Assembly: GCF_037975245.1 (NCBI RefSeq) | Contig: NC_092563.1 | Coordinates: 2,843,501 to 2,907,500 of the forward strand | Reading direction: 5' to 3' | DNA from: Apostichopus japonicus | Taxonomy: Eukaryota > Echinodermata > Holothuroidea > Aspidochirotida > Stichopodidae | Length of the DNA stretch: 64,000 bases | Part shown: piece by piece, positions 54,201 through 62,923 of the stretch | Numbering within the stretch: position 1 is the stretch's first letter | Layout: each line of letters opens with the position of its first letter | Notes under the pieces: generated by a model | The model's database searches: none | Seen by the model: only the letters and a program-made list of their open reading frames with translations | Told to the model about the DNA's origin: nothing | Made by a program: the position numbers and the translations under genes

Positions 54201-57200
54201 TTACGGAGGTTTTATTTCTGCATATGTACAATTCAGGTTGTCTTCGTAATTTGTTACATCAAACCTCGTGATTTTGTAACTTAATTCGCAATTGTATATG
54301 TCCGTCGAAGATTCGTTGATTTTACATAGGTTAAATGACAGACATCGAACACTGGCAGTACAGGCAAGTGCGCATGCGGTGATACTATTGACTTCTACGG
54401 TTGCGTAGACGCTCTCCTTCAGCCGTTTTCTTTTGCTGGCCTTGTATAACCGGGAAACCGATGCTGCCTTCGAACCTATAAAAAAAAGAAGGAAGCAAAT
54501 GCAATAACAAACCTATACTAGAGGGAGGGGGGAGTAGGGGTATTAATTAATGTCACAACAGATTTTCAGACATTTTCGTGACAAAATCTTTACACACGTG
54601 TATGGGACTACTTCAAACCATGGAAACGCGGTTGATATGTGGCTCTGGCGCATTTCTATTTTTTTCCTGACCAATCGTAAGCTTTTTCGGTGCAATGTCA
54701 TGAAGTTCATAAGCAAAATTGCTGGAAACTTTCTCCACTATTAGATCGAAACCAAATCATAACTGTAATTTGTATCTTACATATTGAATCTGGCAACAGC
54801 AGTGTCAGTGAAGTCGTCATGGCAATTGAGCTGAGAACGTCTTTAAGGTAGCATACGCCCAGTAAAAGCCCCATTGACTTACACACTATATCACAAAGTA
54901 ACGTAGTCTCCAAGTCTAGATAGACTAACTAAACGCTACCCATCACTGGATAGCTGACAAGTCGGCCTTTCATGGCACCATCAATTTTCCGTACCATGAC
55001 CATGCAGATTTTTTGCTATAGAGCCGGAACTTCTCGTCACTCTTTACTCGTTACTCAGTCGTAAACAATCTTCGTACGCTGCTCCTGGGGTGGCTAAACT
55101 GGTCTAAAAGTACCTCAATTGGCCCAATTTTTGCACCACATGTGCTTCCATTCATGCTCTTTAACATCCAAGCCACAAAAACAAAACACATCCTAATTGA
55201 TAACATAGCATAAAAATGTTCTCCTGCTCCTAATTGGCACTTTTCCTGAAGGAGATTATTTGGGGTGGATTGATATAGACGCTAATAGGAGTACGCCACC
55301 TTAATTGAATTGTACCAATCAATTATTCAATGAGGCAAAAGGACAACAAAAAGTTTTACAAACAGGTTGCATGGTAATGAAATTGCAGATGAAGAGAGAA
55401 TTGACATCTAAGCCAACATTCGGAAAATTCACATATAGAACACGAACGTATACAATACCCAACCCCACCCCCATCCCTGCTCCACCCAGTCCCAGTTTTC
55501 CTTTCCTCGTGAGTTGAATACACATGAAAAGGATAAAACACAAATGGATTAAAAATAATGAGATTAAACATTACCAACTCTGTAAACAGACTGTCTCCAA
55601 GTACCTCCGCAAAACTGACGATCCTGCCCACGGCATGTCGATAAACACTGCCACTCGGGATATTGTCCGTAATGGGAATAAAGTTCATTCCCGCAGAAAC
55701 ATTGCGAACTGTATTGTAAACCTACTATGACGTAATTCATTGCGTTGCAAATTACCATACAATTGTAAACGTTCGCTAATCCGTTCAGTGCCACGAAGTT
55801 GGCTACTAGTGCACGATTGCTTTGATCGAGGTAGCAACCCAGGTATTGATCTGAAAGAGAAATGCGTGTTGTTTGTGAGCCTTGTGCAAACATGACACAA
55901 TTCAATTCTTACATCTATTTCATTCAACAATGGTAGTTTTGAAATACCATAAATAGTCTAAATATATATATATGTATGAGAATATATAAGCACACATATA
56001 CTACATGCACATGCAACCTTTCATTTAAAGGTGGGGTGGGGGGGGGGGAATGGGCGGTTCGATTCAGGATTGAAGTTATAGACTGCCGGCCTGAGGGAGG
56101 GTTCTAAATGAGGGGTGTCCCCCACCCGTTTCAAAAAGTTTGGTATAAGTGAGGCCACATGAATGCGAATTAATGGATCTTTGCAACTTACTAATAACAT
56201 TGATTCTCCAAAAATGTCAATACTTCAATAGGTCTGCAAATATTTTCTTAATTTTGTTGAAAACGCTCGCAACTTTTAGAGATAAATACTTTACACATCT
56301 AGTTATTTACACTACAAACACAGTATAACCTTCATCATGCTGGGTTGAGGGAGGTGGGGGGGGGGGCGGGTGAACTCTACTGTAAAACATAATACCCGAT
56401 GCTTGCCACGTGGTAGATTAACGTTACACATATCGAGACATAACATAATTACGTTCCAAGCTATAGGTAGGTTGAGCATATTTTGCAGCTGACAGTTTTA
56501 TTGTAAATTCGCGGACTTCAAATTATCGTTAGTTTTTTTTTTAATTAAAAAATGGAACTTTATCTGCTAGGGCAAATTGTGTTACTTTATTGTAAACATT
56601 TCCCCTTCAATGTAAACAATTTCGGTGCAAACGATGAAATATGCCGCGAACTCATGCAGTCGCAGAATTTGGCTGGGAAGCATTACGCGTTATATAAACC
56701 TACAAAGGCTACTGATATAGTGCTACCCAACAGTACGTATAACTCGTTGGGTGGGGGTGGGTGGGGGTAGGGTTACCATGTTGTTACAAAGGGACACGTA
56801 GGGACCATCTTATAAAAATGTCGAGGACATGAACCAACGTCAATATGTTTAGCGAATTACGCCATACGTAAAAAAAAATTATACACTCACCTTTTGGCAT
56901 TTTACAGACAAAATAATAATTATTTTCACAATTATCACTTCTGAACTTCCCGGAGCTGGTCATGACCAAACAGTTCTCATTTAGCATTGTGGAAGGTTCG
57001 TTGTCATCAAAATCTGTTCGGCGAAGAAAATTTGATGAAGCAACTTAAAAGTTAACTCATAATATGAATGAACAAGACGGTAAAGTCTAATTCGAAACTA
57101 CATAGGGACACAGTGTTAGCTAAATAATATACAACCGTGTTGAATTGTTAATGAAAGCGCCCCCACCAACCCCCTTTCTTTTTCTTGCTGTAAAACACGT

Positions 57201-62923: not shown

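Follow-up and report, generated by a model that had tools for sequence, protein, structure and literature searches.

We read the minus-strand locus described below, with a probability of around 0.6, as one animal gene that would encode an extracellular mosaic protein composed of a signal peptide, three duplicated C-type-lectin-like domains (CTLDs), a WSC domain, and a PAN-like domain. The product would be soluble. Its three CTLDs and two PAN-fold domains would together form a multivalent array for binding, with humoral recognition or extracellular-matrix adhesion as the most likely role. Binding would take place via protein contacts or Ca2+-independent glycan contacts, without a classical Ca2+ sugar site. 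If expressed as modelled, the protein is a candidate for humoral recognition or for the matrix, and the lectin label offers no clue to its ligand. More tentatively, it could be a lineage-specific secreted recognition scaffold, i.e., a Ca2+-independent multivalent binder made of CTLDs with an extra disulfide and no Ca2+ sugar site and of a WSC and PAN tandem, in which the number of CTLDs varies by gain and decay of a cassette. The sequence-only reading had regarded the locus as its best candidate for an undescribed system. We found one gene only, with nothing adjoining it that was seen to belong to it, and this gene gives no indication of a novel type of system.

Gene model and possible products

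The nine exons (Table 1), running from 62923 to 54201 on the minus strand, join into a single open frame of 1794 nt including the stop codon, which encodes 597 residues. All eight introns are in phase 1. Seven of them have GT-AG ends, and intron 4 is of the GC-AG type with the donor GCAAGT. When scored against a splice consensus, the weakest GT donors are those of introns 2 (5.8 bits) and 8 (3.8 bits), and the other five range from 7.0 to 12.4 bits. We consider the nine-exon model, as read from the genomic sequence, to be sound. This bears out the earlier description of nine minus-strand exons, a 597-residue protein, and introns exclusively in phase 1, as well as that of a last exon devoid of internal start codon, since neither ATG nor GTG nor TTG occurs in the frame of exon 9. 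The same description placed seven exons in the lectin part. The actual number is six of the nine (exons 2-7), with one exon each for the signal peptide, the WSC domain, and the PAN-like domain, and seven is reached only when the signal exon is included.

Table 1. Exons of the modelled gene and the decayed exon copy found in intron 1.
Feature	Positions	Strand	Evidence
Exon 1: initiation codon, probable signal peptide (residues 1-27)	62845..62923	-	Hydrophobic N-terminus, donor AGG|GTGAGT
Decayed duplicate of the start of exon 2 plus the end of the intron preceding it, inside intron 1	61105..61321	-	Local alignment
Exon 2: CTLD1, first part	60705..60962	-	Lectin_C 9.1e-12 for exons 2+3
Exon 3: CTLD1, second part	60214..60360	-	Lectin_C, exons 2+3
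Exon 4: CTLD2, first part, upstream of the GC-AG intron	59274..59525	-	Lectin_C 1.4e-09 for exons 4+5
Exon 5: CTLD2, second part	58586..58723	-	Lectin_C, exons 4+5
Exon 6: CTLD3, first part	57208..57453	-	Lectin_C 6e-15 for exons 6+7
Exon 7: CTLD3, second part	56891..57013	-	Lectin_C, exons 6+7
Exon 8: whole WSC domain with its eight cysteines	55575..55850	-	Pfam 1.1e-16; Kremen-1 chain match; cysteine spacing
Exon 9: marginal PAN/Apple-like domain with six cysteines, and stop codon	54201..54475	-	PAN_1 21.8 bits alone; kallikrein E=0.67

We scanned the region 52-64 kb for extra exons of the phase 1-1 type, 80-400 bases long and coding for three or more cysteines. Of the 15 candidates obtained, 13 coincide with known exons at least in part, and two lie elsewhere (59182-59018 and 54915-54781); the frames of these two look low-complexity or hydrophobic and not domain-like. 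As the scan covered only exons of this type, an exon of another type, even one encoding a membrane anchor, could be missed. Intron 5 contains a long microsatellite of the TCA type (about 57550-58450), which produces artefactual poly-Asp, poly-His, poly-Ser, and similar frames on both strands.

When the upstream 3 kb was shuffled 200 times and, separately, 300 times, no shuffled sequence matched the combination of a hydrophobic stretch and a strong phase-1 donor seen in exon 1, but 17 of 300 did so when a moderate donor sufficed. The N-terminus is moderately hydrophobic, with a 19-residue mean of 1.29 that is exceeded by stretches inside the PAN-like and WSC domains. The highest 19-residue hydropathy outside the N-terminus is 1.40, so that no transmembrane-like stretch, and therefore no membrane anchor, is seen in the 597 residues. 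The protein is probably secreted, and would lack a membrane anchor.

The first polyadenylation-type hexamer past the stop codon is found at 53823, 380 bases downstream. We also searched introns 3, 5, 7, and 8 for such hexamers, and found them in intron 3 (60066 and 59602) and in intron 7 (AATAAA/ATTAAA at 56591, 56545, and 56502), with none in introns 5 and 8. Shorter transcripts are hence possible. If intron 8 is retained, the frame of exon 8 meets a stop after two more codons. The three hexamers of intron 7 would fit a locus with two or more products, namely a secreted CTLD-only protein whose last coding exon would be exon 7, the WSC and PAN exons being reserved for a longer form or belonging to a separate gene. 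A separate PAN product could begin at one of two start-exon candidates in intron 8 (55571-55469 and 54874-54781), but these are weak, as equally good ones appeared in 14 and 19 of 300 shuffled sequences. Furthermore, no start-exon candidate was found in intron 7, between CTLD3 and the WSC domain, and phase 1 is maintained over every exon join. We thus consider transcripts limited to the CTLDs, or a PAN product of its own, less likely than the joined form, and a locus with two or more products rather doubtful.

CTLD, WSC, and PAN-like domains

Pfam identifies three Lectin_C stretches in the joined protein (3.1e-33). When cut out singly, the CTLDs score 46.1, 39, and 56.3 bits for a cut-off of 22.6, and all three belong to the family PF00059. 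A match of the joined protein to UL45, a viral C-type-lectin-like family (28.8 bits, cut-off 27), coincides with the CTLDs, and we take it to reflect these same domains. The matches to DUF3201, CoV_peptidase, FGE-sulfatase, V-set_2, and PAN_4 are all under their Pfam cut-offs. Each CTLD has eight cysteines, and the first four intervals between them (11, 17, 32, and 11) are common to the three domains. They include an extra pair, located at W-[IL]-G-C and at W-x-C with a spacing of eleven residues, which likely forms an added disulfide in each domain. The vertebrate proteins CLEC10A, CD209, asialoglycoprotein receptor, and Ly75 are of the same sequence family. The sea cucumber CTLDs differ from them in having this extra cysteine pair and in not keeping the Ca2+-site residues.

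Ca2+-dependent C-type lectins are marked by the motifs EPN or QPD plus WND. The top PDB match obtained with the joined protein falls on CTLD3 and is CLEC10A, a sugar-binding receptor; in the alignment of these two, CTLD3 has EPS in place of QPD and FRS in place of WND. The alignment of the three CTLDs places GPT and LKD at these positions in CTLD1, and QPA and LKA in CTLD2. The pair EPN/QPD plus WND is therefore absent from all three domains, which fall outside the Ca2+-dependent C-type lectins, and none of them keeps more than two of the five Ca2+-ligand side chains of mannose-binding protein. Sugar binding via the usual Ca2+ site is not predicted for any CTLD, and, as none of them keeps the full Ca2+/sugar site, a lectin function is at most putative. 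These substitutions argue against a classical innate-immune lectin of the Ca2+-dependent C-type, whose CTLDs would bind microbial sugars and whose WSC domain would add beta-glucan binding. Besides fitting the match to CLEC10A, such a protein would be in line with the expansion of CTL genes in some echinoderms mentioned in PMC10140915, and with the binding of beta-1,3-glucan by a fungal lectin with three WSC domains mentioned in PMC9024836. We consider it unlikely. The earlier suggestion of a multivalent recognition protein remains plausible for the mosaic protein that we favour, except that its three CTLDs are not predicted to bind sugars in the usual way.

The WSC profile (PF01822, cut-off 27.8) matches the joined protein at 8.3e-15 (55.2 bits) and exon 8 alone at 1.1e-16 (61.2 bits), and both the profile and the count of eight cysteines place this exon in the WSC family. 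Its cysteine intervals (25, 4, 16, 2, 16, 4, and 8) are close to those of yeast Wsc1 (22, 4, 16, 2, 15, 4, and 8), which we computed from the residue numbers given in PMC9024836. The closest solved chain is that of Kremen-1, with 1.9e-09 over its WSC stretch. Kremen-1 differs by its kringle and CUB domains, neither of which was found by Pfam in the sea cucumber protein.

The profile PAN_1 (PF00024, cut-off 21.4) matches exon 9 alone at 0.00017 (21.8 bits), and the joined protein at 0.0053 (17 bits), which is under the cut-off. The C-x3-C-x5-C run of the exon resembles an apple domain of plasma kallikrein, which is its best PDB match, with an E-value of 0.67 only. Single-sequence structure predictions were poor for both exons, with a mean pLDDT of 46.1 for exon 8 and 42.6 for exon 9. 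From this marginal match, we infer that exon 9 could encode a true PAN domain. In the solved structure of yeast Wsc1, the WSC domain has a PAN/Apple fold (PMC9024836). Because WSC domains themselves have this fold, the tail may be made of two PAN-fold modules: if exon 9 is a PAN domain, this tail consists of two modules with one fold. Hence, the architecture initially proposed (signal peptide, three CTLDs, WSC, and PAN/Apple) is supported by the open frame and by Pfam, with weaker support for the PAN domain: the suggested Pfam analysis of the joined protein recovers three Lectin_C and the WSC domain above the cut-offs, and leaves PAN_1 below.

Origin and known relatives

The pairwise identity among the three CTLDs ranges from 25.8 to 30.8%. 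The internal intron of each of them falls at the same alignment column (86) and in the same phase, which suggests a tandem duplication of a two-exon cassette. We propose that such a phase 1-1 cassette was duplicated in tandem to produce the three CTLDs, and that the WSC exon and the PAN-like exon were appended via phase-1 introns, in the style of exon shuffling. The WSC domain is encoded by one phase 1-1 exon, and the PAN-like exon starts in phase 1 and ends the gene. The phase-1 introns bounding the modules thus support the exon-shuffling origin suggested before. Intron 1 carries a decayed partial copy of exon 2 (Table 1), whose local alignment scores 101 for a maximum of 44 in 200 shuffles. 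At the protein level, this relic is detected as two short pieces in two frames (tblastn, E=1.6). Modules delimited by phase-1 introns, together with a partial exon copy that has decayed next to its parent, make the gene a clean worked example of exon shuffling. A tblastn search across the window, i.e., the whole stretch of 64,000 nt that was analysed, with E-values up to 10, revealed no paralogues elsewhere in it: we found the gene's own exons, cross-matches between CTLDs, and the relic pieces. The matches at 9243-9317 (E=2.0) and 38668-38552 (E=2.5) are at chance level.

Text searches of the open-licence literature found neither the order of three CTLDs, WSC, and PAN nor a paper naming a WSC domain, a C-type lectin domain, and a PAN domain together. 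The domain order was thus not found in print by these searches, yet the protein is of a known kind of multidomain CTLD protein, whose parts and style of mixing are familiar. It had been claimed that WSC domains and CTLDs rarely meet, polycystin-1 being the best-known case. This case holds, but the claim is overstated: bivalve CTLD proteins with WSC are also in print (PMC10140915), so that the combination is not new. Section 2.4 and other passages of that paper include WSC among the domains of unique bivalve CTLD architectures, and report that most metazoan multidomain CTLD proteins arise via species-specific domain arrangements. The CTLD-containing proteins of bivalves and other animals described there are likewise uncharacterised and combine CTLDs with other domains including WSC, whereas the order of three CTLDs, WSC, and PAN is not given in these passages.

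The family of polycystin-1 and the SpREJ proteins also includes both domains, since in PMC1934368 human polycystin-1 is described with a WSC domain and a CTLD, SpREJ6, 7, and 10 with WSC, and SpREJ1-3 with a CTLD. A fragment of such a receptor is nevertheless very improbable here, because members of this family have PKD, REJ, GPS, PLAT, and transmembrane parts, Pfam finds no PKD repeat, REJ, GPS, or PLAT in the 597 residues, and the gene has its own start exon, its own stop, three CTLDs, and a PAN-like domain. Other mentions of WSC domains are a transcript from the gill that bears the name WSC domain-containing protein 2 (PMC4581086), a figure legend on sponge receptors where the carrier is not stated (PMC8242945), and a passage from a sea cucumber gene table with WSC domain-containing proteins and no lectin (PMC12784826).

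Elsewhere in the window

Other parts of the window contain matches to other genes. Exons resembling those of the RNA methyltransferase NSUN2 were found on the plus strand at 40228-40476 and 49790-50179, with an RsmB/F-type domain (27.7 bits, cut-off 27) and the NSUN2 PUA domain. The C-terminal part of a serine carboxypeptidase is encoded on the minus strand at 20196-20531 (Peptidase_S10, 9.6e-27). The plus-strand frame at 8070-8348 has a weak match to glycosyl hydrolase 15 (19.1 bits, under the cut-off of 22); it is perhaps part of a regulatory subunit of phosphorylase kinase, which it resembles. A repeat is present in two copies on the plus strand (18346-18606 and 22557-22824), with Rfam tRNA matches at 18443-18515 and 22662-22733, and is perhaps a tRNA-derived SINE. 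Finally, the regions 31301-32274 and 32722-33644 share three repeat pairs, 96 to 99% identical and 1.37 to 1.42 kb apart, which looks like a recent local duplication.
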